Position numbers and translations under genes: made by a program
IMG/VR virus record: IMGVR_UViG_3300030098_002835
Location: 1 to 49,645 of that record
From: a virus
Length of the DNA: 49,645 nucleotides
Reading direction: 5' to 3' (one strand)
Notes under the pieces: model-generated
What the model saw: the letters and a program-made list of their open reading frames with translations, nothing else
What the model was told of the DNA's origin: nothing
Database searches by the model: none
Part shown: positions 7,791 through 46,507 of the stretch, in pieces
Numbering within the stretch: position 1 is the stretch's first letter
Layout: every line of letters starts with the position of its first letter

Positions 7791-9359
7791 ATGGAATATA
7801 ATCTACCTAGCGAGATTGTCAAAGATCTAAATTTTGGCAATGACGCTAAAACAAGAATTATAGCTGGTGTAAGTAAGCTAGCTCAAGCCGTAAAATCCAC
7901 ACTAGGCGCCTCTGGTAAGTGCGTTATATATGAAGATGGACGCGGTAAACCGGTAATCACAAAAGACGGTGTAACAGTAGCCGAATCTGTTGTCTTATTT
8001 GATCCGGTTGAAAATATGGGAGCTACTTTAATTAAAGAAGCAGCTAGAAATACAGTGAAAGAGGCAGGGGACGGAACCACAACGGCGACCGTCCTTGCTG
8101 AATCACTAATAAAAGAAATTAATAATAGTAATTGGAAAGACAATACTATTAGAGAAATAAAAGAAGGTATAAACTCTGGCCTTAAAAAGGTAAACGATTA
8201 TCTTGATAGTGTAAAAATTGAGGTAAAAGACGACATGTTAGACAATGTTGCTACTATAAGTTGCAATAACGATAAAGAGTTAGGTACTATTATTGCTGAT
8301 GCTTATAAAAAAGTAGGTGACGATGGCGTTGTTTTAATGGAAAGTTCTGAAACTGATGAAACTTATATTGAACTAGTTGACGGCGTACAGCTTGAGTGTG
8401 GTATGACATCACCTCATTTTGTTACAGACACTGAAAAACAACGTACTGTACTAGAAAACCCACTAGTTTTAATTGTTGCATCGGAAATACCTAACGTTAG
8501 AAAGATACAAAACATATTAGAGTTTGTTATAAAGAACAATAGATCGCTTTTAATCGTAGCTTCTGTATCACAACAAGTGAAAAGTGCGCTACTTATGAAC
8601 AAGGTTAAGGGAAATATTAAAGTAAATATTATAGATTTACCAGGATTTGGCCCTACAAAGCAAGATACTATAAAAGATTTAGCTATTTTAACAAAAGCTA
8701 CTGTAATTAATGAAGAATTAGGTGATGATTTAGACGGAATATCGCTAGATATACTGGGAGAAACTGAAAAAGCAGTTACAGATGACAAAAATACAGTAAT
8801 TACGCTTGAAAATATTGATGAAAGTGTAAAAGACCGTATAAAAGAAGTTAAAAAGCTGTATAAAGCAGAAAAAAGTGGCTTTATTAAGAAAAAAATACAA
8901 CAAAGGATAGCAATGTTATCCGGTAGCGTTGGAATCGTGCGTGTTGGCGCTAATTCTAAAGTTGAGTTAAAAGAAAAACGTGATAGAGTAGAAGATGCGA
9001 TATATGCTACTAAAGCCGCGTTAAAAGAAGGTATAGTGCCAGGTGGTGGTATAGCTCTATTAAATGCTTCACAAGAAATAAAACCTGAAAACGCTGGTGA
9101 GACTATACTATTAAACGCTATTAAGTCTCCGTTTGAAACAATACTTGCTAATGCGGGTATAGAACAAGTAGGACCTAGGCCAAATAAAGGCGTCGGTATT
9201 GATGTCGTAACAAGCGAGGAAGTAAACATGATAGACGCTGGGGTTATAGATCCTGTACTTGTTACTAAAACAGCACTTAAAAATGCGATTTCTGTTGTAA
9301 CTACTATTATATCCGCTGATTGTGTAATTTCAAATATTAGGATCAATGAAGGCAGTTAA
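7791..9359 (+). CDS. groEL: Phage chaperonin GroEL (Hsp60)
   Basis: A full-length group I chaperonin of 522 residues. The equatorial ATP site is intact: TLGASGK near residue 40, KDG with Asp59, AGDGTTTAT with Asp94, VEDA with catalytic Asp402, PGGG near 416-420, and the C-terminal NMIDAGVIDP block. The apical domain (about 195-375) keeps PGFG, but its substrate and GroES-binding face has changed: the YLSPYF stretch of E. coli reads MTSPHF. The loop after the last GGG segment is shortened and the Gly-Gly-Met tail is absent. It should form a folding ring for phage or host proteins. It overlaps groES by 14 bases. The leader AATTAAATTAAATTAAATGG is Bacteroidetes-like. Confidence 0.97.
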   Translation: MEYNLPSEIVKDLNFGNDAKTRIIAGVSKLAQAVKSTLGASGKCVIYEDGRGKPVITKDGVTVAESVVLFDPVENMGATLIKEAARNTVKEAGDGTTTATVLAESLIKEINNSNWKDNTIREIKEGINSGLKKVNDYLDSVKIEVKDDMLDNVATISCNNDKELGTIIADAYKKVGDDGVVLMESSETDETYIELVDGVQLECGMTSPHFVTDTEKQRTVLENPLVLIVASEIPNVRKIQNILEFVIKNNRSLLIVASVSQQVKSALLMNKVKGNIKVNIIDLPGFGPTKQDTIKDLAILTKATVINEELGDDLDGISLDILGETEKAVTDDKNTVITLENIDESVKDRIKEVKKLYKAEKSGFIKKKIQQRIAMLSGSVGIVRVGANSKVELKEKRDRVEDAIYATKAALKEGIVPGGGIALLNASQEIKPENAGETILLNAIKSPFETILANAGIEQVGPRPNKGVGIDVVTSEEVNMIDAGVIDPVLVTKTALKNAISVVTTIISADCVISNIRINEGS

Positions 9360-9603
9360 TAATTACATAATCATAGATCTTATAAAGAACGAACCTAAGA
9401 AAGTCGCGGGATTGATTTTAACAGATGAAATTAACGAAGACAATAGGTATTTAAAAGCAAAGGTTGTATCTGTTGGTAACCTTGTGGAAGGGATAAACAA
9501 AGGAGATGTTGTTTATTACGATAGACATGCAGGCCACGGTATACAACATAAAGATAAATTTTACGGCGTTATAAAACAAATGGACGTTGTACTTATAGAT
9601 TAA
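9346..9603 (+). CDS. groES: Phage co-chaperonin GroES (Hsp10)
   Basis: This 85-residue protein fits a single GroES barrel: strand MKAVNNYIIIDLI, a mobile loop with EPKKVAGLILTDE (LIL standing for the usual hydrophobic IVL tripeptide that docks on GroEL), the core strand LKAKVVSVGN, KGDVVYYDRHAG, and a final strand MDVVLID. It is about 10 residues shorter than E. coli GroES. Its ATG lies inside the end of groEL, so the two are translationally coupled, with the gene order reversed relative to the usual bacterial groES-groEL. It is most likely the cap for the phage GroEL. Confidence 0.93.
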   Translation: MKAVNNYIIIDLIKNEPKKVAGLILTDEINEDNRYLKAKVVSVGNLVEGINKGDVVYYDRHAGHGIQHKDKFYGVIKQMDVVLID

Positions 9604-13677: not shown

Positions 13678-13891
13678 ATTAATTAGAAAGATCACTGTAG
13701 GTAAAGACTACAAGGAAAACGCTATGCATTACGCTGTAGGCCAAGATGTTTATGGTGGGCATACTATATGTGATATAATAGAAGAAAAAGACAAATATTC
13801 TATTTATATTAGAAAAAATAAAGACGTGTTACCTTGGAAGGACTTTAATAAAAATATGGCAGTGTCTGTAGAGTACAACTTAGAGTATTAA
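13670..13891 (+). CDS. Small hypothetical protein (73 aa)
   Basis: The product (MSKLIRKITVGKDYKENAMH, then YAVGQDVYGGHTICDI and a strand-rich end) looks like a small beta-barrel-sized domain. A conserved-looking YAVGQxV pattern is known to me from marine phage genomes, unassigned. It overlaps the upstream gene by 8 bases, and its stop shares a base with the next start (TAATG), so it is coupled on both sides. The function is unknown; a link with the tandem GroES-like product downstream is suggested only by position. Confidence 0.72.
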   Translation: MSKLIRKITVGKDYKENAMHYAVGQDVYGGHTICDIIEEKDKYSIYIRKNKDVLPWKDFNKNMAVSVEYNLEY

Positions 13892-14481
13892 TGAAAGCGC
13901 CTTTTGACTTTGTTATAGAGCCAAAAGGTAATAGATACAACAATACTAAAAAAGTTGGTGATAAAGATCTTATATTAAATACAGAAATATTTAATCATCA
14001 GTTTGTTAATAGAGAAGCTATTGTTAAATCTATACCTACAGCCTACAAAACCAAAATAAAACCTGGTGATACAATTATAGTACATCATAATGTCTTTAGA
14101 CGTTGGCATAATCAATACAGTGAAGAAAAAAACAGCAGGAGTTATTTCAACGAAAATACATATCTTGTAAAACCAGATCAAGTATTTTTATACAAAAGAA
14201 ATAACAATTGGATCGCTATGGATGGTTATTGTTTTGTACAACCAATTAAACAAAGAGATAAGCTAAAACCAGGAGAGGAAGAAGAGTGTATAGGTATAGT
14301 TAAGTATACTGACGGTGTTAATAACATTAATGACCTTGTAGGGTTTACACCTTTCTCAACTTACGAGTTTATAATCGACGGTAAAAGATTATATAGAGTT
14401 ATGAATAAATTTATTACAATTAAATATGAATACCAAGGAAACGAAGAAGAATATAATCCAAGCTGGGCAGAAAGCAGTTGA
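13891..14481 (+). CDS. Tandem GroES-like protein (putative second co-chaperonin)
   Basis: This 196-residue protein appears to contain two GroES-like barrels. Barrel 1 (about 1-102) has FDFVIEPKG, then EAIVKSIP, KIKPGDTIIVHHNVFRRW and NTYLVKPDQVFLYK. Barrel 2 (about 109-182) has MDGYCFVQPIK, ECIGIVKYT, DLVGFTPFSTYEFIIDGKRL and FITIKYEY. Each follows the Cpn10 order of edge strand, loop, core strand, GD/DLV turn, roof segment and final hydrophobic strand. The mobile loop lacks a clear IVL tripeptide. It lies beside the terminase genes, away from groEL-groES. It could be a co-chaperonin with a larger cage, or a barrel reused as a virion part. The call rests on pattern matching. Confidence 0.6.
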   Translation: MKAPFDFVIEPKGNRYNNTKKVGDKDLILNTEIFNHQFVNREAIVKSIPTAYKTKIKPGDTIIVHHNVFRRWHNQYSEEKNSRSYFNENTYLVKPDQVFLYKRNNNWIAMDGYCFVQPIKQRDKLKPGEEEECIGIVKYTDGVNNINDLVGFTPFSTYEFIIDGKRLYRVMNKFITIKYEYQGNEEEYNPSWAESS

Positions 14482-20589: not shown

Positions 20590-22092
20590 ATGGCAATTTC
20601 AAATCCTGGTGGTTTGTTAAACAGCGTACCTTCCGCAAGGAAATATACGTTGGCTGACAACTATCTAGACTTAGCGTCAACTGCAAATCAAGGTTGGGCG
20701 CAACAATATGTACCAGATCTAATGGAGCAAGAAGCTGAAGTTTTTGGACCAAGAACTATTTCAGGTTTCTTATCTCAAGTTGGAGCTGAAGAAGCGATGA
20801 CTGCTGACCAAGTTGTTTGGTCTGAGCAAGGTCGTTTACACTTATCTTATAAGGGACACATCGAAGATAAAGATGCTACAGGTGGTGGTGACATCACTAT
20901 TGAAGCTGATATTGATGGTGTAACTACTGATATAGCTAGTCACGGTATTAGAGTTAACGATACAGTTATCGTTGCGAACTCTGAGGCTGTTACAAAATGT
21001 TTAGTTATTGAGGTGGCAAATGCTGTTATCACAGTGTCTCCTTATAACTTTATCACTTTAGAAGCTGCTGGTTTTTCTACTGAAAACGGAACTCAAGACA
21101 CTACTATATTAGTTTATGGTTCTGAGTACGCAAAAGGTAAAAACTATATAGCTGCTGACGGTTCTACTGCTACTGATACAAGAGGTGCTAACGAGCCAAG
21201 ATTTAAATCTTACTCTAACAAACCAATCATAATGAAAGATTACTACGAAGTTTCTGGATCAGATGCTTCTAGAATTGGTTGGGTAGAAATCTCTACTGAA
21301 GCTGGACAAGGTGGTTACTTATGGTATTTAAAAGCTGAAGCTGATACAAGAGCTAGATTTACTGACTACGTTGAAATGGCAATGTTAGAAGGTGAAACTA
21401 ACAACGATACTGATTCAGGTGTTGAACTTTTAGTAGATAGCTTCTTAACTGCTGACGGTGATAAATTCGGTACTGAAGGTTTATTTGCTGCTATCGAGTC
21501 AAGAGGTAACGTAACTACTGGTGTAACTGGTGTTAACGCTGCTACTGATTTAGCTGAGTTCGATGCAATTTTAGCTGAGTTTGATAAGCAAGGTGCTATT
21601 GAAGAGTACATGATGTTTGTTAACAGATCAACTAGTTTAGCTATTGACGATATGTTAGCTTCAATGAATTCTTATGGAGCTGGTGGTACTTCTTACGGAG
21701 TATTTAACAACTCTGAAGATATGGCACTAAACTTAGGTTTCTCTGGATTTAGAAGAGGTTCTTATGACTTCTACAAATCTGATTTTAGATACCTAAACGA
21801 CAAAGCTACTAGAGGTGGTATTAACACTGCTAACACTGCTAACGCAATCAGAGGGGTTATGATACCTGCTGGAACTTCTTCAGTTTACGATCAAACTGTT
21901 GGACAAAGCATAAGACGTCCTTTCTTACACGTTAGATATAGAGCTTCACAAACTGATGACCGAAGAATGAAAACTTGGGTTACTGGTTCAGTTGGAGCTG
22001 CTACGTCTGCTTTAGATGCAATGCAACTACACATGTTGACTGAAAGATGTTTAGTTACTCAAGGTGCTAACAACTTTATGTTAATGAAGTAA
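20590..22092 (+). CDS. Major capsid protein
   Basis: A 500-residue protein following the scaffold gene and followed at once by a strong terminator, as expected for the most highly expressed virion gene. It contains LMEQEAEVFGPRTISGFLSQ near the N-terminus and, later, RDYVEMAM-like, FRRGSYDFYKSDFRYLND and HVRYRASQTDDRRMKTWVTG segments, which I recognise from capsid proteins of marine podoviruses. An HK97-type fold is assumed. Residues ~95-205 form a Thr/Val-rich segment that may be an inserted surface domain. Its codons are more optimised (GCT, GGT, AAC) than those of neighbours. Confidence 0.87.
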   Translation: MAISNPGGLLNSVPSARKYTLADNYLDLASTANQGWAQQYVPDLMEQEAEVFGPRTISGFLSQVGAEEAMTADQVVWSEQGRLHLSYKGHIEDKDATGGGDITIEADIDGVTTDIASHGIRVNDTVIVANSEAVTKCLVIEVANAVITVSPYNFITLEAAGFSTENGTQDTTILVYGSEYAKGKNYIAADGSTATDTRGANEPRFKSYSNKPIIMKDYYEVSGSDASRIGWVEISTEAGQGGYLWYLKAEADTRARFTDYVEMAMLEGETNNDTDSGVELLVDSFLTADGDKFGTEGLFAAIESRGNVTTGVTGVNAATDLAEFDAILAEFDKQGAIEEYMMFVNRSTSLAIDDMLASMNSYGAGGTSYGVFNNSEDMALNLGFSGFRRGSYDFYKSDFRYLNDKATRGGINTANTANAIRGVMIPAGTSSVYDQTVGQSIRRPFLHVRYRASQTDDRRMKTWVTGSVGAATSALDAMQLHMLTERCLVTQGANNFMLMK

Positions 22093-23894: not shown

Positions 23895-25436
23895 ATGGCT
23901 TTATTCACTGAAACACAACAAGATTATTACGAAGGTAATAACTATGGTAATTATCAATTAGTTTCTATTAGAGATATTATTAATCAATTTATGATGGCTT
24001 ACGTAGGTGAAGAAAAAATCATAAGTAAAGCTAGAAGAACTGACGTAGCGTTTCACGCTAAAAGAGCTTTAGCAGAATTATCTTTTGATACTTTTAAATC
24101 TATAAAGTCACAAGAAATAGAATTACCAGCTTCACTCACGATGATACTTCCTCATGATTATGTAAACTACACAAAACTATCATGGAGCGATAGTGCTGGT
24201 ATAAAACATCCTTTATATCCTACAAAACACACTTCTAATCCTTTTAAGATAAAACAAAATAATGACGGTGAATACGATTTTGTAGCCACATCAGGAATAA
24301 TATCTAGTGATGATTTAAGCAACACAGATTTTAGCTCTGCTTTATCCGCTACGAATAACTGGGTGTTTACTCCAGCTGTAGATAATACACCTTGGGGTGG
24401 TTCAGATACAGACACGGTACAGGCAGCTTCTCCTGCGGGTATAACAGGAGGAAGCTCTACGAGATTACAAATTGATTCTAAACCTTTCACATCCTCTCAG
24501 AACAGCGTTATTACCGGTAGAGCTTATGCTGTTTGGCAAGAAATAAACGTTGCAAATATGGATTCTTTAGATATAAGAGCTTATGGTTCAGCTGCGGGTA
24601 CTGTTTCTGGCGCTGGTGATAGTACTATAAGATTTGGAATTAGCAGCACGCCTGGTGATCAATCTACTAATTTAGAAAAAAATAACCCTAGTTTAAACGA
24701 CACAGTTAGTAATCCTGGAGATTCTAATGCTCCAAATTTTTTACCTACTTCAGCTAACAACGGTACGGGTGGGCGCGCTTACGTAGAATGGGTTGGTACT
24801 GGAGCTACCGCTACGCAAAAAGAGGTTTTAGATATAGATGTATCAAATTACAACGTAGTGTATGTTTTAATAACTTGTTTTACTCCTTTCACCAGTTTAA
24901 CCACTTCAAATAGAAGATGTACTTTAACGGATGTAGAGGTTACGTATGAAGGTGCTTCTCCTGATTTAGTTAGAGATGGAGATTCTGCAACTTGGAGTAA
25001 CTATAAATCTCAACAACCTTCTGAGTTAGTACAACAAGACTATAGAGAGTCTTTTGATTTACCTTTTCATAGAGAAAGATATGGATTACAACCATCGCAC
25101 GCACAAACAAATGGATCTTTTTATATTGACGAGCTTAAAGGTTTAATACATTTTAGCTCTAATATCTCTGGAAAAACTGTAATACTAGATTATATAAGTG
25201 ATAGCTTAGGAACTTGGCAGGAAATGCAAGTACATAAACTCGCAGAAGATGCTATGTACAAATGGATCATGCACGCTGTACTTTCTACAAGAGCCAATAC
25301 TCCAGAGTATATAATAAAAAGATATCAAAAAGAAAAATTTGCAGCTGTAAGAAAGGCTAAATTAAGATTATCAAACATAAAGATAGAAGAATTAACTCAA
25401 ATACTTAGAGACAAGTCTAAGTGGATAAAACATTAA
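23895..25436 (+). CDS. Head-tail adaptor with an inserted beta domain
   Basis: The ends of this 513-residue protein look like a helical connector: residues 1-100 (VSIRDIINQFMMAYVGEEKI, then DVAFHAKRALAELSFDTFKS) and 430-513 (HKLAEDAMYKWIMHAVLSTR to the C-terminus). Between them, about residues 140-360 form a Ser/Thr/Gly-rich beta segment (for example IRAYGSAAGTVSGAGDSTIR) that resembles a carbohydrate-binding or jelly-roll insertion. I recognise the connector part from crAss-like and marine podoviruses, usually without so long an insert. It is expected at the portal-tail junction with the insert facing outward. Confidence 0.77.
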   Translation: MALFTETQQDYYEGNNYGNYQLVSIRDIINQFMMAYVGEEKIISKARRTDVAFHAKRALAELSFDTFKSIKSQEIELPASLTMILPHDYVNYTKLSWSDSAGIKHPLYPTKHTSNPFKIKQNNDGEYDFVATSGIISSDDLSNTDFSSALSATNNWVFTPAVDNTPWGGSDTDTVQAASPAGITGGSSTRLQIDSKPFTSSQNSVITGRAYAVWQEINVANMDSLDIRAYGSAAGTVSGAGDSTIRFGISSTPGDQSTNLEKNNPSLNDTVSNPGDSNAPNFLPTSANNGTGGRAYVEWVGTGATATQKEVLDIDVSNYNVVYVLITCFTPFTSLTTSNRRCTLTDVEVTYEGASPDLVRDGDSATWSNYKSQQPSELVQQDYRESFDLPFHRERYGLQPSHAQTNGSFYIDELKGLIHFSSNISGKTVILDYISDSLGTWQEMQVHKLAEDAMYKWIMHAVLSTRANTPEYIIKRYQKEKFAAVRKAKLRLSNIKIEELTQILRDKSKWIKH

Positions 25437-25439
25437 TAC

Positions 25440-28400
25440 ATGCCAGATATTAAAAATACTTTCGCTCAAGGTAAAATGAACAAAAGCCTTGATGAAAGAA
25501 TAATTCCAAAAGGACAATATAAAGACGCTATGAATATACAGGTTTCTACTTCTGATGATTCAGATGTTGGAACCGTTCAAAATATTTTAGGTAATACTAA
25601 AATAAATAGTATTAACAGTAGTCAAGGTGGAGGAAATATTGGTGGTAGTTGGGAGTGTGTAGGGTCTATAGCTGATGAAAAAAATAATAAACTTTATTGG
25701 TTTGGATGGAACGCTACTAAAGACGCTATATTTGAATACGATACAAATCCAGCAACACCAGAACTAAACTTAATTTTAGTAGATGTAAGTAAAAACGTGT
25801 TAAAATTTGAAGAAGATCAATTTATAACAGGTATAAATATAGTTGACAATCTTTTAATGTGGACAGATGGTGTTAACGAGCCTAGATGTATTAATATAGA
25901 TGACTGTAGAGATGGAAGCGCTAATTTTACAACACAAACTCAATTTACTGGAGGTGTAACAGGTGGCGATATAAAAGAAGAGCACATTACTTTAATAAAG
26001 AAAAAACCAACACAAGCTCCAACTGTAGAGCTAGTAACTGTTGGTTCTGCTTTAACAAGTGGGGTGAGTCAAAATATTAATTTTTCTACATATAGTGTTG
26101 GTGACACTATAGATATAAAAGTTGATTTAGATACTTTTGTAGCGTATACATCAGGTATAACTCTTACTGAAGAATATATAGATGCGCTTGGTACTACTTA
26201 TTCAGCTGGTACCACGTTAAGTAGCGATCTTATTGACGCTGTACGTTTAAATATAGAAGCTGATGACGTTTTATTACTATCTGATCCAGCCGCTCAAGGT
26301 GTTTTACCTAACAACGCTCAAATAAGACTAGTTGTTGATTCAGCTCCAACTTTTGCGCAACAAATAGCCTCGCCTTCAGTCACATTGATTAATCAAATTA
26401 TTTCATGTACAATTCTATCAATACAAACAGACACTCCAGCAACTACTTTATCTTATGATTTTGTTGTAGAAGATTTAGAGGATTTGTTATTTAGTAAAAC
26501 TTTTCCTAGATTTTCTTACAGATACAAGTATAAAGACGGCGAGTACTCTGCGTTTGGTCCTTTTACTGATATTATTTTTTCACCTGGGCAGTTTAGTATA
26601 CATCCAACTAGAGAGCCTTATAACTCTGCTATGGAGACTAGAATTAAAGAGATTGTTCTAAAAGATTTTGTTACACACGATATACCAGACGGCGTTATAG
26701 AAATAGACTTGCTTTATAAACCAGATAACTCAACTGTAGTTTATGCAATAGACACTGTTATATACAGCTCAACTAACAAAGCGTGGACGACTGTTGATGG
26801 AACAAATGCAACTATAGATTTACCATCTTCTTCAGCGGTAACACCTAGCAACACTGGTTTTTATAGAATAAAATCAGAAAATATATACGCCGCACTACCT
26901 TCAAATCAACTTCTAAGACCTTTTGATAACGTACCTAAAAAAGCTAAAGCACAAGACTTTACAGCTGGTAGATTAATGTACGGTAACTACACTCAGAACT
27001 TAGATTTAGGTTCTAGCTTCATACCTAATATGTATTTAAAGTACGAAGAAAGAACTTTCGCTGATCAAACAGTTAGTTTTGACGTAGGTAAAGAATCAAT
27101 AAAATCACAAAGAACATACCAAGCTGGTGTTGTTTACGGAGACGAATACGGAAGAGAAACACCTGTTTTCACTTATAAAAACGCTTCTAAAACAATACCT
27201 TATAACGCTAATACTGACGGTACTTTTTACGGTAACGCTAGCGCTTCAAATATGCTTTATTTTAGAGCTTACACTAGTGGTTTGCGAATAAAATCAAATG
27301 ATGATAGTGATACAATAAATTACGAACCTTATTACTTTAAAGTATTCATAAAAGAAACTTCTTCAGAATATTACAATCTTGTTATGGATAGGGTTTATAG
27401 AGCAGAAGAAGACGGTAACTTATGGATTTCGTTCCCATCGTCTGATAGAAATAAAGTACAAGAAGATGATTATATTATACTTAAAAAAGCTATAGACAGT
27501 GATTATCAAGTTGATATTGAAAATAAATTTAAAGTAATAGATATAAAAAATGAGGCGCCAGAATTTATACGTAAAAAATATATAAGTTTAGGACAATTTG
27601 ATGGTAATGGTACTTTAACTAATTTATACACAGAACAAGCTAACCAACCTTCTAAAAGTACTAAATCTTTAACTATTAGTAAAGATCAAATACAATTAGA
27701 ATCAGGCACGGAAATACAAAATCTTTTCGATAACGATAAAAAAATATATATAAACTTTGAAGCAACGCCTAGCGCTAATGTTAAATACGTTTCTAAAAGA
27801 TATAGAATAGTAAGTTTAAAAACAGAGGGTAGTGGACCTGAACTTTATAAAATTGTTTTAAACGAGCCAATTATTGAAAACGATAGTTGGGTAGAAAGTA
27901 GTATAACTAACAATACTCTAGAGAGCACATTAAAAACAAATTTATACCTAGAAGAACAAGATCAATGGGAGGAGTTCCAAGGGAGATTTTTTGTAAAAAT
28001 ATTGTCAAGTATTGTTACTAATCTTTATTTAGAAGGACAAATAGGTACTACTCAACAGTACTCTATTGCTACTAGTACTGATATATTTAATTTAGCTGAT
28101 GATTCAGCCACAAGCGTTGGTGGTGTTTTACAATACACAAATGCTAGTGGTAGTCAAAGTCTAGCTGGTCAAACAAGTGGTAATATTAACCACACTACAG
28201 ATAGTGGATCTGCTGGAAGTATAAGTAATACACCTGCTAAATGGAATAACACTGCTGATGGTAATTTACTATTTGATGGTGCGTCAGCAGCGAGTTCTAC
28301 AGGGTTTTTTATAGATGCTTGTTACGTAGCCGCAATGCAACCACGTATAGTTTCAGATATGTCTAATATATCTTACGTTGTTGCTGGCTCAGACAACGAC

Positions 28401-31052
28401 GGTGTGTCTTCTTCAATTGCTAATAAATATGACGTTTCTGTTAGTTGTAATTTATTTAGAGGTGGATATAGTGGAACTGGCACTGGTAGTAGTATTGATT
28501 TTGGAACGTCTAACACGAACTGGCCAAATGGTTTTGGAGGTACTGTAGACGCTATGCCCGGTATTTTCACGCCTACAGCGAGTGCTTTTGAAATAAGAAA
28601 ACAAATTGGTGGAAGTGGAACTCCTAATAGAGATCTTGATAATTTTACGTATACCCAAGGTGGGTTCTACATGCATTTATCTGTTTCTGGCGTGGGTCCA
28701 CATTTATTTCCTTCTGGCTCTAGTTTGTTAAACACTTCTCCCGGTAGTATACTTGATAATATATTTGATCCTAATTGGGACAAATACGGTGATCTAGGCA
28801 AAAGAATAAATCTACACAACATACAAAACAACAACCAGCAGCCTTTTATATATATGGGTCTTACAGGAGATGGTGTTTATTCCCAGGCTAACGGAATTGA
28901 TCCAACATTACCTAATAGTGGGGCTGGATTACAAAATTATACTTATGCTGATAGAGGTATGGAAGTTTTAAACGCGCCGCAAAATAGTACTTTTGATTTT
29001 AGCGGTGTAATAGATAGAACTTGGGATCCTCTTTATAATAAACCTGAGTTAGCTGATTTTATACAAAATTTAAAAACACCTGGTAGTAAATTTACTTTTG
29101 GTACAGACAGTGAAGTATACACTATTCTTGAGTGTGAAGAAGTTTGGATATACAACCATACCGCTTGGAATAGAATGGCTAAATGGGATGGTAGTAATGA
29201 CGATACTTTTATAGAACGAGATGATACTGTTCACTTTAAATACCATGAAGCTTTAGACTTTTTTAAGAATAACCATAATGACCACACAGCGACAGCAGCT
29301 AAATTAACTGAGCTAGAAAACAAACTAGTAGAGTTTGGTGCTCCAGACAATAGAAGAGTTTGTTATATATTAAAACTAGATAAAAACCCAACTGCTTCAG
29401 GCTCTTCTTACGATCCAACAACTCAACTTACTGATGCTAACATAGGGGTAAATATGCGTTTTATTGAAAGCTATATAGATGAAACAGCTACTATAGCTAG
29501 TGATAATCCAGCTGTATGGGAAACAGAGCCAAAAGAAAACGTAGACTTAGATATTTATTACGAAGCTTCTAACGCTATACCTTTGAAGTTAGATATTAAC
29601 TCTAGTGGAGCTGGAAGTTTAAGTCCTGACGATAGAAAAGGCCACATGATAGCGCCTATTGGTACAACTGTTAGATGCAACAAGACAGGTTCACATCTTT
29701 CTACCCCTAGTTTTGGCGACTGTGTAGTTAAAAGTTGGGATGGAAATATAGTTGAATTAGAGCCAGGATTAGACCCTGATACGTCTGGAAGTTACAGTGG
29801 TAGTAGTATAACTGATCAAACTAGCGTTTTTGGTAATAAAAAAATAAAGTTTTATAAAAATGATTTAAGTTATATTGAAATTGGTATTTTTGAAGTAAAA
29901 CAAATAACTAGTAATTTAATAACTAAAGTAGCTTTAGACAGAACTATAAGAAACATAGGATTATCTTATTTTAATTGTTATTCTTTTGGTAATGGTGTAG
30001 AATCCAATAGAATTAGAGATGACTTTAACCAACCTTTTATAAGTAACGGCGTTAAAGCTTCTTCAACGTTAAAAGAACAATACAAAGAAGATCTTAGAGC
30101 TAGTGGTTTAATATATTCAAGTATATACAACTCTACTACTAGTTTAAATGAAATAAATCAGTTTATAATGGCAGATACAGTTACTAAAGATTTACTTCCT
30201 ACTTATGGTAGCATACAAAAGCTTTTTGCTAGAAATGATGATTTAATAGCTTTGTGTCAAGATAAAATAGTGCAAATTCCAGCTGATAAAGATATAATAT
30301 TTAATGCTGATGGTAACCCGCAGTTAACAGCTTCAAATAAAGTTTTGGGACAAGCAAGGCCTTTTGTTGGCGAGTATGGTATATCTAACAATCCAGAAAG
30401 TTTTGCATCTGAAAGCTATAGAGCTTATTTTACAGATAAACAAAGAGGGGCTGTGCTTAGATTATCAATGGACGGTTTAACACCTATATCAGACGCTGGT
30501 ATGTCTACATATTTTAAAGATAAGTTAAAAGAAGATGCTTTTAAAATAGTAGGTAGTTACGATACTTATAAAAAAGAATATAACTTAACTATTGATGATG
30601 GTAATAAACAAATAAACGAATTCAATAGTAGTTCTAACTCTGTAACTATTAGTTTTAAAGAAGATGTTAGAGGTTGGGTTAGTTTCAAATCTTTTATACC
30701 TGAAAGCGGTTTAAGTATGGGTGGTAATTATTATACTTTTTATAATAGTCATTTGTATCAACACCACTTAGGTAATAGATCCGTGTTTTATGGACAATCA
30801 CCTATTTGCTCTATAACAACTATAATAAATGAATCCCCAACATCAATAAAAAACTTTAACACGTTAAATTACGATGGCGACAGCGATTGGCAAGCTACAA
30901 TACAAACAGAGAAACAAAGTGGAACCGTAAGTAGTTTTATAGAAAAAGAAGGTAAGTGGTTTAACTATATACAAGGCGAAGAAAATGTTATTGATACTAA
31001 AGCAATTAATTTTCAAGGTATAGGAATTTGTTCACAAGTAAATACATTATAA
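25440..31052 (+). CDS. Large tail protein (crAss-like stabilization/nozzle type)
   Basis: A 1,870-residue structural protein that opens MPDIKNTFAQGKMNKSLDER and continues IPKGQYKDAMNIQVSTSDDS, a signature I associate with the large tail-hub or stabilization proteins of crAss-like and marine podoviruses. WFGWNATKDAIFEYD and VDNLLMWTDGVNEPRCINID suggest a propeller-like N-terminal part. Residues ~850-1190 are Ser/Gly/Asn-rich and look like an inserted variable domain. The end returns to conserved-looking blocks (QKLFARNDDLIALCQDKIVQ). It probably forms the tail barrel. It starts 3 bases after the adaptor gene and is followed directly by a smaller tail gene. Confidence 0.8.
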   Translation: MPDIKNTFAQGKMNKSLDERIIPKGQYKDAMNIQVSTSDDSDVGTVQNILGNTKINSINSSQGGGNIGGSWECVGSIADEKNNKLYWFGWNATKDAIFEYDTNPATPELNLILVDVSKNVLKFEEDQFITGINIVDNLLMWTDGVNEPRCINIDDCRDGSANFTTQTQFTGGVTGGDIKEEHITLIKKKPTQAPTVELVTVGSALTSGVSQNINFSTYSVGDTIDIKVDLDTFVAYTSGITLTEEYIDALGTTYSAGTTLSSDLIDAVRLNIEADDVLLLSDPAAQGVLPNNAQIRLVVDSAPTFAQQIASPSVTLINQIISCTILSIQTDTPATTLSYDFVVEDLEDLLFSKTFPRFSYRYKYKDGEYSAFGPFTDIIFSPGQFSIHPTREPYNSAMETRIKEIVLKDFVTHDIPDGVIEIDLLYKPDNSTVVYAIDTVIYSSTNKAWTTVDGTNATIDLPSSSAVTPSNTGFYRIKSENIYAALPSNQLLRPFDNVPKKAKAQDFTAGRLMYGNYTQNLDLGSSFIPNMYLKYEERTFADQTVSFDVGKESIKSQRTYQAGVVYGDEYGRETPVFTYKNASKTIPYNANTDGTFYGNASASNMLYFRAYTSGLRIKSNDDSDTINYEPYYFKVFIKETSSEYYNLVMDRVYRAEEDGNLWISFPSSDRNKVQEDDYIILKKAIDSDYQVDIENKFKVIDIKNEAPEFIRKKYISLGQFDGNGTLTNLYTEQANQPSKSTKSLTISKDQIQLESGTEIQNLFDNDKKIYINFEATPSANVKYVSKRYRIVSLKTEGSGPELYKIVLNEPIIENDSWVESSITNNTLESTLKTNLYLEEQDQWEEFQGRFFVKILSSIVTNLYLEGQIGTTQQYSIATSTDIFNLADDSATSVGGVLQYTNASGSQSLAGQTSGNINHTTDSGSAGSISNTPAKWNNTADGNLLFDGASAASSTGFFIDACYVAAMQPRIVSDMSNISYVVAGSDNDGVSSSIANKYDVSVSCNLFRGGYSGTGTGSSIDFGTSNTNWPNGFGGTVDAMPGIFTPTASAFEIRKQIGGSGTPNRDLDNFTYTQGGFYMHLSVSGVGPHLFPSGSSLLNTSPGSILDNIFDPNWDKYGDLGKRINLHNIQNNNQQPFIYMGLTGDGVYSQANGIDPTLPNSGAGLQNYTYADRGMEVLNAPQNSTFDFSGVIDRTWDPLYNKPELADFIQNLKTPGSKFTFGTDSEVYTILECEEVWIYNHTAWNRMAKWDGSNDDTFIERDDTVHFKYHEALDFFKNNHNDHTATAAKLTELENKLVEFGAPDNRRVCYILKLDKNPTASGSSYDPTTQLTDANIGVNMRFIESYIDETATIASDNPAVWETEPKENVDLDIYYEASNAIPLKLDINSSGAGSLSPDDRKGHMIAPIGTTVRCNKTGSHLSTPSFGDCVVKSWDGNIVELEPGLDPDTSGSYSGSSITDQTSVFGNKKIKFYKNDLSYIEIGIFEVKQITSNLITKVALDRTIRNIGLSYFNCYSFGNGVESNRIRDDFNQPFISNGVKASSTLKEQYKEDLRASGLIYSSIYNSTTSLNEINQFIMADTVTKDLLPTYGSIQKLFARNDDLIALCQDKIVQIPADKDIIFNADGNPQLTASNKVLGQARPFVGEYGISNNPESFASESYRAYFTDKQRGAVLRLSMDGLTPISDAGMSTYFKDKLKEDAFKIVGSYDTYKKEYNLTIDDGNKQINEFNSSSNSVTISFKEDVRGWVSFKSFIPESGLSMGGNYYTFYNSHLYQHHLGNRSVFYGQSPICSITTIINESPTSIKNFNTLNYDGDSDWQATIQTEKQSGTVSSFIEKEGKWFNYIQGEENVIDTKAINFQGIGICSQVNTL

Positions 31053-35011: not shown

Positions 35012-38000
35012 ATGATTATTACAGACGGTCCTGAAAAAGCTAATTTTGCAACGGTAGAAGAAGAAAATGAATTTAGAAGGTTTGTTATAGAAACAAACCC
35101 AAAGTTTGCTGAGTTATTAGATTTAGACTCAAAAAATACAAGTATAAAAAGAAAAGTAAAACAAGTTGATGGACAGTATATACCTGTATTAAACAATCCT
35201 ACTATTCAAAAAGCCTGGCAAGAACTTGGTGATTCTTATTTAGATTTTCAAGAACAAAGAGGAGATTTTTTAACAAAAGAAAAAGAATATAAAAGAATCA
35301 CAGATATTTCAACCAGTTGGGATCCAGATATTTTTACATTAACAAAAGACGTAAGTTTTACCGATATACCAACTAATAAGCGTGATATATACGATAAGTT
35401 TCTTGGTATTTCCTCTGATGGCGAAGCAATTGCTTTTGGAAACGTGCGTGATCAAAATAATCCTAGCGCTATTAACCCAATTACAGGTCATGCTATTTAT
35501 ATGGACACTTGGGATTTTATTGATATATATAATGAAATATGGAAAGGTGGAAAAATATCATCAGAAAACACTTCAGAGGCCGATTTAGGCCAATTATTTA
35601 CTCAAGAATATGTTAATTATTTAGGAGACGATCCAGACGCAAACTGGGATAACTATCTTGTTTTTAGGTATAACTTTAAAGAATTAATGTCAAAAGGTAG
35701 GTTTGCTCAGATTATAAAAGCGTCAGGTCAAGAATTTGATTTAAGCGATTATTTTACCATATCAGATCCTAAAGATTACAATCTTAGCGGTATGAATAAG
35801 GTTAAAATTAAAAGAAAGCTTGATGGAGCTACTTTAGAATTTTATATTAATGGCAAACAAAATAGAAAAAAGAGTGGGTTTAACAATAACTGGAAAAAAA
35901 GTGACTTTCCCACTACAGATCAAATTAATAGAGCTGTATTTTTGTTTGTTAATGGTTTTAGTGAAAACGCTATAAATAATAATCGAGGATCTAACGATAA
36001 CCACGGTGGACAGTTTACGTTTATAGATTTCACACCAGATCCTTATCACAAAACTTTTACAGATGACGCTTGGGAACAAAATCCTTATAAAAGATTATAT
36101 AACACTTATGATGACAACGGTAGAAGAATAAAAACCGAGCGACAACTAGTTAATTTTTTATATGGTGATGAAAAGTATAAAATCCAAATAGTTGATTTAG
36201 AAAAATACACTCATAGCTCTACACAAGAATCACTGGTAACTTCAAATAACACACCTATAGATGTAAATAATTGGGAAAATATAAAACAACAAAATATAAA
36301 TTTACATCAACACAACCCTCTTTTTTCAATAATACAAAAACCAAAATTAAACGAAACGTATTTCGATGAAAATAACGAGATGCAAATTAAACTACATCCT
36401 AGCAACGAAGGTTTTAAGTATCAAAGATTTATTGAAAACGCTTATTGGAGTGAAGATAAAAATGCGTGGGTATGGAGTACGGGTGTTCCGTTTTCAACTA
36501 TTAATGATGAAGGTCGTACTGTAATCATAGAGCCAAAGGAGTTTTTAATATCTAACCTTGATCTTAAAGGTGAACAGTACAACGTAGGAGGTGGGACTGG
36601 TGAAGGTTTGTCAAGAGTAAGTTACCCTGGTGTTTTAATAGAAGGTGAGTTACAGTGGGCTAGTGATTTTCCAAAGTTAAAAAAAATAAACGAGACTTTT
36701 GGGGGTGGTAGATTAGATTATTTTCTTGGTACCGGAGGTAATTACTACGACTCTTATGTGCCTATAAAAAATTTTTTTAGTTTAAGTGAAGACGAGGCTG
36801 CAAAACAACTAGCCGCAATATTACCAAATGCTTATTCTGTTAATGATTTTGTACCAGAAGGAGGTATGTATAATAAACATGGTAATCTTTTTTTTAGTAT
36901 TGATTGGAAAAAAGATCTTGAAGATAAAATTATCATAACATATCCTGTTGAAGACGAAAACGGTAATCAAGAATTTTATCAACACACTTTGTATCTTTCT
37001 ATCGCTGAAGGCGGTGGATCTACAGGAGGCTCAGACCCTGTAATGGCTGAGTTAATGAATAGATCTAGAAAAAACTTAGTTGACTTTATCGAGTGGGCAA
37101 CACCTCAATTAAAAAGAATACATGAGACTTACAATAATATACATCAAGACGATCACAATAAAAACTTAGAGTATCTTGAAAAAAATGTACAAGAAAACTA
37201 CACGTTAAGTTATAAAGAAAAAGAAAATATATATCAAAAAGTATTTGAGATATATAACGAAAATAGAAATTATGCGTTTGTAGAAGAACAAAATGTTGAT
37301 TTTGACGTGCATTTTGATGCTAATTTATTAAAAAATACAGATTACGAAGATCTTTATGACGAAGCTAAGCAGTTTGCAAATTATATAGGTTATATATCTG
37401 GTTACTCAGATCCAACTAAAAATCCAAGTTATCAAAGTATACTTAATATAAAAGCAAAAGACTTAGTAACAGCTAAGCTTAGTAGTGAAAAATTAGAACT
37501 TAAATTTAAGAAAAAGGGTAGGGATATAGCTAATTCGCAGTCGTTGTCAAATTTAACAGTAGCGGCGAGAAATTACATAACTGGAGTAGAGAAAGAGGTT
37601 TTAGGGCATCAATTAAAAGTTCAAACTAAATACGAAGAAATAGCTAATCACTCCAACATGGAGTTAATAAAAAACTTTGAAAAAGTTTATAATCAAGAGA
37701 AAGGTGGTAATATAAAATTTGCACCAAGTACAAATTACGCAAAGCACGAATACAAGGTACCTGATAATAGATTTTCTTTTATGTATACGTATGGAGGCAC
37801 ATCTTATGACACGAGAACTATAACTTATTTAGACGAAGTAGAAATTGAAATAGCAAATGGTGAAAAATTAAAAATAGATAGAAACGCATATAACAATGTT
37901 GTTTCTGCTTATGAATGGTTAGAAAAAAGCCAAAAAGAAGTACAAGATCTTCAAGAGCAAACAATGCAAGACATTTTTAAGATTTTTCAAGATTCGGATT

Positions 38001-41000
38001 ATGATCGTATGGATGATTTTTGGAATATAGCTAGCCTTAATTATAGTGCTTGGGAGAAATGGTGGACTAAAATAGGTTATGGAAGTGCTGAAGTTTTTAT
38101 GAACCTCATGTACGGAGGTCACACTATGAGTAAAGCTCTAGTGGGTATGGAAGCTGATCCTATAGTAAAAGACTTAATGTTTGATTTTAAAGAAGAACAG
38201 CAAAAAACTTATAATCGATTTTACAAATCAGATCATCTACTTGGGGTACCAATTAGTGCCAATCCTTTTGAAAAAGAATTTTGGACTTCATCGACGTTAG
38301 AATTTGTAGGTGACGTAGTTACAGAACAGGCACCACTATTCGCAATGTATATGTCTCCTTTTGGTATATTCACAGGTGGTGTACACGCTTTTGGAGCGGG
38401 GCAGTTTGAAATGGATATGATAGAAAAAAACACTGGTAAAAAGTTTGGTTTTATGGAAAGAACTCTTACTGCTGGTGGCTATGCTACTGCTGAGATTGCT
38501 TTTGGCTATCTTCCTACTAAACTTATCGCTCCTAAGTGGTTAGGAGGTTGGGGTGGATCAACATATGTCACTAATAGGCTTTTACCTAAAAGATTTCGTT
38601 TTGTACATAATAACAAAAACATAATAAAAAACAATCCTAAGCTTAGTGGAATGTTTAACATGTCTACTAAGGAGTATGTAAAAAGTAGATTAGGTATGTT
38701 TATAGCTTCACCTTTTCTTGAAGGATACGGTGAGGGTGTTACTCAAATAACTCAAAATTGGTTTTTAGGTAGAGATCCACTTGAAGGTGTAGACAAAGCA
38801 ATAGATGCTGGTTTTATTTTAGGAGGTGGTTTAGGTAGTTTAACCTTTGGTGGTGGTATTATTTTAAACAAGTTTTCAGATCGATCAAATCTTAAATTGT
38901 ATCAAGATAAAATGGTGGAAAACGATCAAATAATACAACAAATAAATAATTTAAAATTAAAAATAAAGTTAATACAAAAAAGATATGAGCTTAATAATGT
39001 AGAACCTAGTTTTAACCTAAAAAAATCAATGGATAAAGCAAATCAAGATATAATTGGTTTGAAAGAAATATCTAATGATTTAAAAAGCGACATGCGTGAT
39101 ATAATTGAAAGTGAAGAAAAAAAGGTTTTAAAGTTAGGTAATAATTTTTTAGATCAATTTAAAAATACTTTTAATGAGTTACAAAGAATAAAATTAGAAG
39201 CACAAAATATACTTGATAACAAATCAATATCAAACGAAACAAAAACTATAAAACTAGAGCAGTTAAAAGTAAAATTTGATCAAAACCAAGCTGTTTTAAA
39301 TATAATGAGAACTCCAAAGGTTTTTGGTAACAGGTGGAGGGCTTTTGAAAAGAGCCAAATAAAAGAAGACGTAGAAAGAAGAGAAGAAATAATGGGTCAG
39401 GTTACTACAGAGTTAATAGAAGGTGGTAATGCCAATCCAACAGATAAACAAATAAACGAAGCTGCTGAAGTTGAGTATTATTTTCAAGAAATAATAAAAG
39501 ACACTAAAAACAAAAAAAGAACAAAGTTAGCAAAAGACTTTAATACTTTTGAAGAAGTAGAGGACGCTATTAAAGCTTACGATAACTTATTAGCTCAAGG
39601 GCAAATTACACAAGATCAATACAACGATTTAGTACAAAATGCTTTTAATGGCACTGATTTAGGCGCTACAATTACCTTAAAAGATGGTACAACTTACGCA
39701 TATCAAATAGTTAGAAACGCTGCAAAAGCAGGTAGGACTAAAACAAAAGTACACGAAATAGGACATCAAATTGCTATAGAGGCCTTTGGTAACAATTCAC
39801 AAGTAGAGGCACAAGTAGCAGAACAGCTTTTAAATTTTGTTGATAATCAAAACCCTGCATTAGGAGTTTTGTTAAAAACTAGAATAGAAAGAAATGCTGA
39901 CGGTAGTATGAAAATAAACGAGGTTATACCTAACTTTCTTGAACTAGTTGCTGAAGGCAAAATAGATTTTGACAAAAGAGAAAATAGAGGTTTAGGTTTC
40001 TTGATAGGAGATTTATTTGGTAAAGGTGTTTCTAATGCTACTAATACTGATTTTGATTTTGATTTTGAAGGAGAGCAAGATGCTATAAATTTCTTTATTG
40101 GTCTAGGTAAAAAAATAAGTAAAGATAAATTTACCTTAAAAGATATGGCCGCTGTAAAAAGAAATATTTTATCTACATCAGCTTTAAAAGGACAAACAAG
40201 TAAATTTAAAAAGCAAATACAGCACTCTAAAGACGTTGCTAAAACAAACTTAAATAGCTATGCTTTAGATGAGGACGGTAAGTTTAACGAAGAACTATAT
40301 AAACCAAACTCACCTGTTATAGCTAATGAACTACCTGGTATGATAAGGGCTCAAATAAACAATTATTTCAACAAGAGACCAGCTTTACAAGTAACTGAAG
40401 ATGGTAAACAAGAAATGGAAGCCGATGTAATGTTTAGATTATATAACGTGTCTAAAACAGGTAAAAGTGATGTTAATAGCTTTGATGGTAGAGGTGATTT
40501 ATATGGTTATTTAAACGGTAGAATTAGATACAGAATGTTAGATCATTTTAAAAGTCCTAGCTCTGTTGTTACTAATTTTTCTCAAAAAGATATAAATGAA
40601 CTACAAGAAGGGCTTTTAGAAGACACACAGCCAGATGTACAACCTTCAGTTTCAAAACAAAAAGTTAGAACTTTAAAAGATTTAAGTGATTTAGACTTAA
40701 ATAATATAAGCGAAATAAAAGCTGAAATACAAGCTGAAGTTGAAGCTTTAATAGAAAGCAACCCTGATAATTTACAAGCAGAGCTAGACAAAATTATTAA
40801 AAAAGAATTTAGAAAGATTATAATAAAAGACATGGGTAAAATTTCCCAAAAGAAAGGTCAACTTATTATAAGCGATGAGTATTCAATGTTTTTTGCTGAA
40901 AACTATAAAGACATAGTAGATGCTTTATCTGTAGATGTAATTAAAAACAACTATAATAACTTGTTTGAAATAACAGAGGTTAGTAAAGAAGATGTTAAAA

Positions 41001-44000
41001 AGATAGATGAAGAAACTGGTAAAAAAACTTATTATAGAAAAGGTATATTTAATATAAAAGGTAACAAAGCTATATTTACTAATTACTTTATACAAGGAGG
41101 TTACACGACGTTAAAAGACAGACAAAGCGCTTTAGCTACTTTAATAGCTGAATCTATATCAAAAGAAGCTGTAGATAATTATATACTTGAAAACTCTAAT
41201 AACGAAAACGCTGTTATAGACGCTAAGATACGTAAAATATCTGAAAGTTTAGATAAAAATAAAAATGAATTTAAAACTTTTGATAACATACAGTATAGTA
41301 AGTACAATAGAGAAATAGAAGCCCAACAGTTTTTAAGCGTTTTACGTAAAGAAATACAATTAGAAGTTAATAGAAAAAAGAAAAATGGAAAACCATTTCA
41401 TCAAGATAAAGGTAGAGCTGCAGAGCAAGCTATAAACAATATACTGCAAAGATACGAAGACACTATGCCTGGCTTTATTGTTGTAGTTAAAAAAGCTACT
41501 GAAAAAGATAATATGGCTGATCTTTCTATAGGTTTTAAAATAGATGAAGATGCAGGTTTAGAAGAATTTCAATTAGTTAACATAGAGATTAAGTTAGATG
41601 CCCAAAAAATAAAATTGACTTCTAAATCAATTACTGAATATGACTTTACAAATGATTTTGTTTCTGTTAAAAATGATAATTTAGAAAGTATAAATTACAC
41701 AGATGCATTTCAAGGTTCTAAAAAAGTATTTAAACAGTTTTATGAAAAAGCAAACGAGTTAATTGAAGATATTAACAACGGGAGATTTTTAGATAAAGAT
41801 GGTAAAGTAGTAAAAGCTAAAATAACTATACCTTTAATGAGAACTTCTAAAGACTTTATGCCACAAATAGTTTATGATAAACTAAAAGAAGGTGGTTATG
41901 TTAAAGCTATACTCGAGACTAATAACAAAGTATTAAATGAAGACCATGTTATAGAACATCATGCAAATAAAAAACACCCGGCTTCATATATAGAGCTTAT
42001 AGGTAATGGTTTGTTTTCTTTAGGGCCAGATATGTTTTTTAATGGTAAAGTACCTCCGTTAGAAATGCAAGTTGAAGGCGTTTTTACGGTTAGTAAAAAT
42101 AGCGAGCAACCGTCTAGAGCTAAAGCTACAAAAGGTATTAAATTAAGAAAAAAAGAATATGGATTAGATATGGTAACTGCTAAACCTAGATTTGTTTCTA
42201 GACCAATTGAAGGTTCTGTAGGTTTTTCAAATTATTCTTTAGCGGACCAACGATCTATGACAGATCTAAGTAACATGCATACTAAACCTTTTGTTACTAT
42301 AAATAAATCTACTAAATCTAATTTAACAATATCGCAAGCTCTTTTAAAAGCAAGACCTGTTATAAATTATAGTAAAGAATCTAGAGGTATGTCTGCTTTT
42401 GATTTTGACGAAACACTTATAATAGAAGGAGAGAACTTTATCGAAGCCAAAAACCCAGAAACAGGTGAAATAGTAAAAATAAGTTCTGGAAGATGGCCTT
42501 TAGATGGTCCTTCTTATGCTAACTTAGGATATACTTTTGATTTTAAAGACTTTGTAAACGTTAGAGGTGGTATTGACGGTCCTTTATTAACTAAGTTAAG
42601 AAATAGAATAAAAAAGTACGGCGCTGAAAATAATTATATATTAACAGCTAGACCGCCAGAAAGCGCTACAGCAATACACGGGTGGTTAAAAACAAAAGAT
42701 ATTGATTTACCATTAAAAAATATAACTGGTTTAGGTAATAGTACTGGAGAAGCTAAAGCTATATGGATAGCTGGTAAGTACGCAGAAGGTTATAACGATA
42801 TTTATTTTGTTGACGATGCTCTACCTAATGTTAAGGCTGTTGCTGATATTATAGATCAATTAGACATTAAAGGTAAATCTGTTCAAGCTAAAATACAATT
42901 TAGCAAAGACATGAGTAAGGAGTTTAACAAAATAATACAACAAACAACTGGTGTTCCAGCTGCTGTAAAATTTTCTGACGTTCAGGCTAAATTAAGAGGT
43001 AAAGGTTTTAAGTTTAACGGTATAATACCTTCTTCAGCGCAAGACTTTGCTGGTTTGTTATATAACTTAATAGGTAAGGGTAAGCAAGGTGAAAAACAGT
43101 TTGACATTTTAAAAAAGGCATTAATAGATCCTTTTGCTAGAGGTATAGATGAGTTAAACACAGTTAGACAAAAAGCAGCTGAAGATTATAGTAATATACT
43201 CAAAGAACTTCCAGAAGTAAAATCAGACTTAAACAGACTGTTAAAAAAGTTTAAAGATATTGATATACCAAAAAGTATTAATGAGTTTACTGTGGATCAA
43301 GCTGTTAGAGTTTATTTGTGGAATAAAGCAGGTTTTGAAATACCTGGTCTGTCAATAAGAGACCAAAGAGCGTTGTCTAAATTTGTAAAATCACAAGATG
43401 ATTTAGTTTATTTTGCCGATGTTATAGGTAAAATTTCAAAAAGACAAGATGGTTATGCTGCTCCAAGTGAGTATTGGCTAACAGAAAATATAGCTTATGA
43501 TTTAATGAGTGATGGTGCTATTGGAGATATGAGAGCTGATTTTTTAGCTGATTGGATAGAAAATAAAAATGAAATATTTTCAAGTGATAATTTAAATAAA
43601 TTACTAGCTATATATGGAGCTAAATATGTAGAAGCATTAAAAGATATTTTATATAGAATGGAAACTGGTAGGCAAAGACCTACTGGTAATAACAGGTTAA
43701 CTAACGAGTTTATGAATTGGACTAATGGTGCTATTGGTTCAATCATGTTCTTTAATATACGTTCCGCTGTGTTACAAACTATATCAGCTGTTAACTACAT
43801 TAACTGGAGTGATAATAATCCTTTATTAGCAGCTAAAGCTTTTGCTAACCAACCTCAGTATTGGAAAGATTTTGTAATGATATTTAATTCTGATTTTCTA
43901 AAACAAAGAAGAGCTGGTAATAAAAGAGGTATTAACGAGCAAGAATTATCACAAGCTGTTGCTGGTAAGGGTGCTTACGAACAATCAAAAGCTGCTATTA

Positions 44001-46292: not shown

Positions 46293-46507
46293 TGTGGGAT
46301 CTATTTAAAGATAAAAACGAAATCAACGAAAAAAATGTAATAGGGTTTGCTTCTTTTGTTCTTATGGTTATGTTTGCTATCACAGATTTAATAACAGGTT
46401 TTTGTGGTCAGGAGCTTGTAATAAACAATACAATATATAATTCTTTTGTTTTTGTAACATTAGGATGTTTTGGGATTAGTTCCTTTGAAAAAATTAAAAA
46501 ACAATGA
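46292..46507 (+). CDS. Small two-helix membrane protein (71 aa)
   Basis: Two hydrophobic helices (NVIGFASFVLMVMFAITDLI and SFVFVTLGCFGISS) with an acidic N-terminus and a basic end suit a small inner-membrane protein of holin or antiholin type. This layout matches many small phage membrane proteins, but no named family is recognised. It overlaps the adhesin gene by 4 bases (ATGA) and the preceding gene by 1. Confidence 0.72.
   Translation: MWDLFKDKNEINEKNVIGFASFVLMVMFAITDLITGFCGQELVINNTIYNSFVFVTLGCFGISSFEKIKKQ

Follow-up and report, generated by a model that had tools for sequence, protein, structure and literature searches.

An overlapping phage groEL–groES pair without the conserved inter-ring contacts or the lid roof: a candidate single-ring chaperonin

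Introduction

Among phage co-chaperonins, T4 gp31 is, like the GroES described here, a lid without a roof hairpin; its partner is the host GroEL, its mobile loop is longer, and to our knowledge T4 encodes no GroEL. gp31 is described as having no roof loops, so that the chamber beneath it is larger, open at the top and able to serve the 56-kDa gp23 (PMC6318259). A different class comprises the chaperonins of phages EL, OBP and AR9, phage GroEL homologues that are reported to act as single rings (for the EL and AR9 kinds, PMC7185714, PMC9598537). These are lidless, with no GroES gene detected in AR9 or in phiRU (a relative of phage EL), and are about 25% identical to GroEL. The phage described here has a GroES, its GroEL is 35-42% identical to GroELs, and it thus falls outside their class.

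Mitochondrial Hsp60 can form double-ring footballs, and Hsp10 has a roof. This cellular system resembles the present one in that it is a group I chaperonin that uses a lid and is devoid of two inter-ring salt bridges, the same two that are lacking in human mtHsp60 (PMC5575113); inter-ring contacts are therefore not required of every group I chaperonin. So far, engineered mutants and mtHsp60 have supplied the arguments over whether the GroEL–GroES machine needs two rings, and a large, natural, conserved clade that has given up the ring interface but preserved the ATPase and the lid would, if real, provide a direct test bed.

Viral GroEL–GroES pairs, and a gene order that tracks GroEL phylogeny, are already known. 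According to PMC9611531 and PMC7185714 (both citing Marine et al., 2017), the virioplankton chaperonins likewise include both GroEL and GroES, diverge from those of bacteria and have a gene order that follows GroEL phylogeny. The order groEL then groES is also already present in the cultured Flavobacterium phage Elemovirus (KNV11_gp43/gp44, NC_055853) and in the Manatee Spring podovirus MW202828. The Elemovirus genes are adjacent, its GroEL lies on the same side of the tree as the present one and has no GGM tail, and its GroES is roofless; however, its GroEL is only about 36% identical to the present protein, shows ATP-site changes (G88S/A, T91C/G) and belongs to a group in which K105 is often kept, and its genes run end to start rather than overlapping by 14 nt. 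In MW202828 groES overlaps groEL and is again roofless, whereas the GroES is only 36% identical and the GroEL falls in another sub-clade. The pair described here is accordingly real, conserved and of a known kind, and what is new is the prediction of a single ring with an open lid, by which the roofless lid, until now described for T4 gp31, is linked to phages that bring their own barrel.

Results and discussion

The groEL–groES locus

The DNA analysed (the window) is the whole of the 49,645-base viral record IMGVR_UViG_3300030098_002835, the phage nature of which is clear from its genes for a terminase large subunit (TerL), a portal and several virion proteins. Among annotated phages, relatives of the TerL occur only in those of Flavobacterium, Cellulophaga, Tenacibaculum and Maribacter and in the uncultured podovirus MW202828, the closest named relative by this protein (65% identity). 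The host is therefore likely to be a Bacteroidota bacterium.

On the forward strand, a gene for a 522-aa group I chaperonin (groEL, 7791–9359; PHROG 5725, E=5e-135; Pfam Cpn60_TCP1, PF00118, E=7.8e-53) is followed by one for an 85-aa co-chaperonin (groES, 9346–9603; PHROG 3188, E=2.4e-14; Pfam Cpn10, PF00166, E=8e-10), and the two share 14 nt of coding sequence (9346–9359, +). This overlap between a full-length groEL and its own groES, which an earlier note on the sequence had pointed out, is kept in relatives: a tally of 80 clade members gives 14 nt in 71, 17 nt in 8 and 29 nt in 1, a recurrence that argues against chance. Since groES begins within the bases that end groEL, the two genes are probably translationally coupled. 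Promoter and terminator scans near the pair returned signal at the level of shuffled sequence.

The gene order is, as the earlier note also stated, the opposite of that of the bacterial operon, with groES coming first in all 44 bacterial loci fetched (29/29 Bacteroidota and 15/15 Pseudomonadota). Among the best 80 IMG/VR relatives (71–96% identity), groES lies directly downstream of groEL and overlaps it in every case; these are close relatives by selection, and the set was widened to the elemo and Manatee-like clades. In the elemo clade, groES directly follows groEL (within 600 nt) in 13 of 14 loci, the remaining locus being truncated inside groEL. In the 81 Manatee-like loci, groES is found within 600 nt downstream in 54 and further downstream in nearly all others, the exceptions being one contig that ends too soon and one with only a groES fragment at its end. 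Both genes are under strong purifying selection, as shown by median dN/dS values of 0.12 for GroEL and 0.09 for GroES in the window clade, where the pairwise distances of the two proteins also correlate (r=0.62). On the strength of these sequence comparisons, the GroEL–GroES pair is an old, conserved phage module, carried by a clade of Bacteroidota-type podoviruses.

The view that phage GroELs are rare and usually lack a partner, also put forward earlier, is not sustained. GroEL relatives are encoded by 282 records of the phage collection, a number that includes many near-copies. When 26 phage or viral records with a GroEL were sampled and searched over their whole length, a Cpn10 above the Pfam cut-off was recovered from 20, so that a missing partner is not the rule outside the jumbo and crAss-like phages. 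No Cpn10 above this cut-off was found in phiRU, AR9, Aphrodite1, LR756501, Dulem virus 41 or crAss-like cr108_1, and the partnerless records are mostly those of jumbo phages of the EL/AR9 kind. The two genes are adjacent in Bacteroidota phages and distant from one another in Vibrio phages.

Phylogeny

In an IQ-TREE analysis of 50 GroELs, the 23 that come from phages with groEL followed by groES are split at 100/100 from bacterial and other phage GroELs, in a tree whose root is not known and which contains several long branches. With a downstream groES and a position on the same side of this split, the window falls within a viral clade of the groEL-then-groES type. Placing the window clade together with Bacteroidota GroELs on one side is rejected (p-AU 0.0004), and placing all groEL-then-groES phages with them is marginally rejected (p-AU 0.032). 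Two Vibrio phages (L189, L193), on the other hand, have GroELs that nest within gammaproteobacterial ones, and the GroELs of Bacteroides phage DAC16 and LR756501 nest within those of Bacteroidota. The coexistence of nested and separate phage GroELs points to several origins, with the window lineage an old one, in agreement with the earlier proposal of an old phage lineage rather than a recent host copy. Of the two protein phylogenies that had been proposed, the support lies with that of GroEL; the GroES tree recovers the same split without support (82/19; 97 columns).

Phage-type groEL genes were also observed on contigs in metagenome-assembled genomes (MAGs; L198-L204) labelled Maricaulis, Euryarchaeota, Aliivibrio and others, with groES downstream in 6 of the 7; in most cases these resemble phage contigs that have been binned with the MAGs.

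The GroEL protein

The AF2 model of GroEL (pLDDT 84.5) finds its best PDB matches among GroEL/Hsp60 structures, and its identity to bacterial-type GroELs of solved structure reaches about 40% at best. The ATP-site residues T30, G32, K51, D52, D87-T91, D398, G414, G415 and D495 (E. coli numbering) are all present and are invariant in 81 clade members (entropy 0); they include the ATP/Mg-site residue D94 (E. coli D87; codon at 8070–8072, +) and the catalytic Asp, D402 (E. coli D398; codon at 8994–8996, +). The combination of a full-length Cpn60 fold with a conserved ATP site (D87, D398, D52, K51) identifies the protein as a group I chaperonin and confirms the earlier description of a full-length GroEL with intact ATPase residues. 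The C-terminus reads NIRINEGS (9333–9356, +) and the GGM tail is indeed missing, but its absence is common to all phage clades examined and hence does not distinguish the window GroEL.

The apical domain has been altered in a consistent manner. The segment MTSPHF (window residues 205-210; 8403–8420, +) stands in place of E. coli YLSPYF (199-204), as the earlier note had read it; the clade consensus is LTSPHF, with T200 in 79, H203 in 75 and F204 in 77 of 80 relatives. This change is real, but it is only part of the alteration, which extends to the ring–ring interface and to the binding face of apical helices H and I (8508–8597, +). Here the window protein carries L234Q (residue 240), L259K (264), V263L (268) and V264M (269), and among the 80 relatives position 234 is Gln in 80, 259 is Lys in 78 and 264 is Met in 80, while L237 (243) is kept, as is F204. 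Fixation of these changes within the clade speaks for a face that is specialised rather than decayed, and a substrate range of its own is plausible for the phage GroEL.

Other contacts have also changed. The R197–E386 contact is lost in the clade (Cys/Ser/Val with Lys), and in 61/81 members the bacterial D83–K327 pair has its charges exchanged (K/R–D/E), which points to retention of this intersubunit contact. The cavity wall carries +1.5 per subunit versus -7.9 in Bacteroidota, although this is weak evidence because the 12 positions compared were chosen for being charged in E. coli.

The ring–ring interface

The inter-ring contacts of GroEL have been described (PMC2741606), and the list of contact residues (K105, A109, E434, R452, E461, S463, V464) was fixed before variability was computed. 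In the window GroEL, the first ring–ring contact segment (E. coli 105-109; 8124–8138, +) carries K105N and A109K and is hypervariable in the clade, and at residues 431-432 (9081–9086, +) E434 and D435 are replaced by Lys and Pro, with loss of the partner side of the K105 salt bridge. In the second contact segment (E. coli 452-467; 9135–9188, +), R452 is replaced by Glu, E461 is kept and S463 and V464 are deleted in 81/81 members. The R452E and 463/464 changes recall the SR1 single-ring mutant (PMC2741606).

Every bacterial GroEL compared (29/29 Bacteroidota, 15/15 Pseudomonadota and E. coli) retains the two salt bridges K105–E434/D435 and E461–R452, whereas both are gone from all 81 window-clade GroELs, so that the contacts conserved in bacterial double rings are absent throughout. 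With interface residues read from the alignment, in which the 452-470 segment is gapped, the six listed positions that are conserved in bacteria (105, 109, 452, 461, 463 and 464) have a mean entropy of 1.97 bits in the window clade versus 0.57 bits for random sets of such conserved positions (P=0.00045); in the Manatee-like clade, the same positions reach 2.35 bits, a value as high being found in 0 of 20,000 random draws. A ranking of positions conserved in bacteria and variable in the clade is headed mostly by residues 102–111, 435–436, 445–452, 461 and 469, which correspond to the equatorial underside. Neither salt bridge is present in phiRU or AR9, while the host-derived phage GroELs (L189, DAC16 and LR756501) retain both. 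The simplest reading is that the window GroEL rings would be single or weakly paired.

The conserved inter-ring residues are also gone (0 of 6 matched) from the GroELs of immuto (L086) and Vibrio phage K471 (L191), which belong to the other side of the tree. Since the loss is thus seen in Manatee-like, immuto and K471 GroELs as well, it may be a general viral adaptation.

The GroES lid

The AF2 model of GroES (pLDDT 88) matches the Cpn10 fold, with low confidence in the mobile loop alone (residues 13-34; 9382–9447, +). This loop contains the GLIL binding tripeptide (L23-I24-L25), and a GLIL/GLIM-type tripeptide is maintained across the clade; the Cpn10 fold and the hydrophobic tripeptide together mark the protein as a genuine Cpn10. 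The roof β-hairpin, in contrast, is reduced to a turn of 10 residues (GNLVEGINKG; 9475–9504, +). The same length is found in 80/80 clade-A, 14/14 elemo and 79/80 Manatee-like GroES, in comparison with 13–19 residues in bacteria and 12 in T4 gp31. A roof hairpin is not required of every Cpn10 member, as the co-chaperonin gp31 is without one, and on the host side the change is a matter of degree, the roof being shortened also in several Bacteroidota hosts (13–14). Ordinary Cpn10 structures rank above gp31 in the Foldseek comparison with the window lid.

The unannotated GroES of Bacteroides phage DAC16 (L088; 2730-2993), encoded directly upstream of groEL, is likewise without a roof hairpin, and roof loss may therefore have occurred more than once. 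Leu at GroES I25 was considered as a single-ring signature, I25L being reported as functional with single-ring GroEL (PMC5575113), but the same residue occupies this position in about half of the Bacteroidota GroES sampled, and the idea was abandoned for that reason.

Proposed mechanism and alternatives

It is very probable that groEL and groES encode a chaperonin and lid that function together as a pair. The favoured reading, to which a probability of roughly 0.55 is assigned from the sequence evidence, is that a single-ring or weakly paired GroEL folds virion proteins under an open-roofed GroES lid, in the manner of mtHsp60/Hsp10 but with a gp31-style lid. The phage GroEL would form seven-fold rings that stay single or pair weakly, and an unfolded phage protein would be bound by the altered apical face. 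On ATP binding, the phage GroES would cap the ring through its GLIL loop, and hydrolysis would release it without a trans ring, with ATP driving both capture and release; in engineered single rings, lid affinity must be neither too tight nor too loose (PMC5575113). The open roof might make the chamber larger or leaky and so suit a bulky virion client, for which the first candidate would be one of the major virion proteins, at about 54-57 kDa (20590-22092 or 23895-25436), as gp23 is for T4 gp31. Neither the portal nor the one candidate virion protein used as a query had a relative in the PDB by sequence. The stricter proposal, in which a GroEL that is by nature obligately single-ring goes through its cycle with the phage's roofless GroES and is distinct from both the lidless EL/OBP/AR9 rings and the double-ring GroEL, is put forward only tentatively.

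Contacts of another kind could still pair the rings, and E461, a salt-bridge residue, is kept in the window GroEL; both points count against a single ring. They also lend themselves to a conventional double-ring GroEL that has diverged together with its own GroES, has had its ring–ring surface rewired with compensating contacts and works like E. coli GroEL–GroES. The full-length fold close to GroEL structures and the intact ATP site agree with such an assembly, interface change is tolerated by many group I chaperonins, and the phage EL chaperonin forms double rings in the apo state through contacts other than those of GroEL (PMC7185714). Rewiring is nevertheless rather unlikely, as the interface is hypervariable among clade members and has not settled on a new pattern, and both conserved salt bridges are missing from every member.

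A division of labour, with the phage GroES working chiefly for the host GroEL in the way of gp31 (PMC6318259) and the phage GroEL acting alone as a lidless holdase like those of EL, OBP and AR9, has precedents on both counts, since jumbo-phage GroELs do without a lid (PMC7185714, PMC9598537); host GroES tripeptides also overlap in type with the phage ones. It is improbable, however, for two genes that overlap and are inseparable in 80/80 relatives and whose products diverge in a correlated manner, and the records of the EL/AR9 type are without any GroES. A recent horizontal copy of the host groE operon with shuffled order, of the sort represented among phage GroELs by the two gammaproteobacterial and two Bacteroidota cases above, is scarcely credible here: the window clade lies outside all sampled bacterial GroELs, its grouping with Bacteroidota is rejected, and identity to solved bacterial-type GroELs peaks near 40%. 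For the sampled bacteria, the GroEL tree and the AU test thus reject recent host origin, and the single or weakly paired ring with its own open lid is retained as the working model.

A second GroES-related gene and other genes of the record

Two genes upstream of terL, the window encodes a second GroES-related protein of 196 aa (13891–14481, +; PHROG 13932, 'co-chaperonin GroES') with a C-terminal Cpn10-like domain. Its C-half matches the bacterial GroES profile (91%, E=9e-7), and its N-half, which matches weakly, is possibly a degenerate second Cpn10 copy. The protein is present in 65/67 clade members in which the position is covered, and in phi38:1, elemoF, MW202828 and phi46:3 a homologue is encoded just before terL; those of phi38:1, elemoF and phi46:3 are annotated as co-chaperonin GroES. 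A role as a second lid of the phage GroEL was considered and is unsupported: phi46:3 has a homologue, and no GroEL was found in that phage. The 196-aa protein is therefore probably not part of the pair, but a terminase-locus protein or a partner of the host GroEL. The homologues in Bacteroidota podoviruses are of about 180-200 aa (L263:2348-2932; L264:2783-3346, reverse strand; L265:1700-2242; L266:1305-1907).

Among the remaining genes, a single ORF (35012-45439, +; 3475 aa) takes up a fifth of the record, and its product matches nothing in Pfam or PHROG. A 1870-aa virion protein (25440-31052, +) contains the N- and C-terminal Pfam domains of the crAss-like phage muzzle protein (PF25731, PF25729), which links this phage group to a crAss-type tail architecture. 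A 914-aa protein (46504-49248, +) carries at its N-terminus a MAM domain (PF00629), a domain known mostly from animal adhesion proteins, and is possibly a receptor-binding protein.
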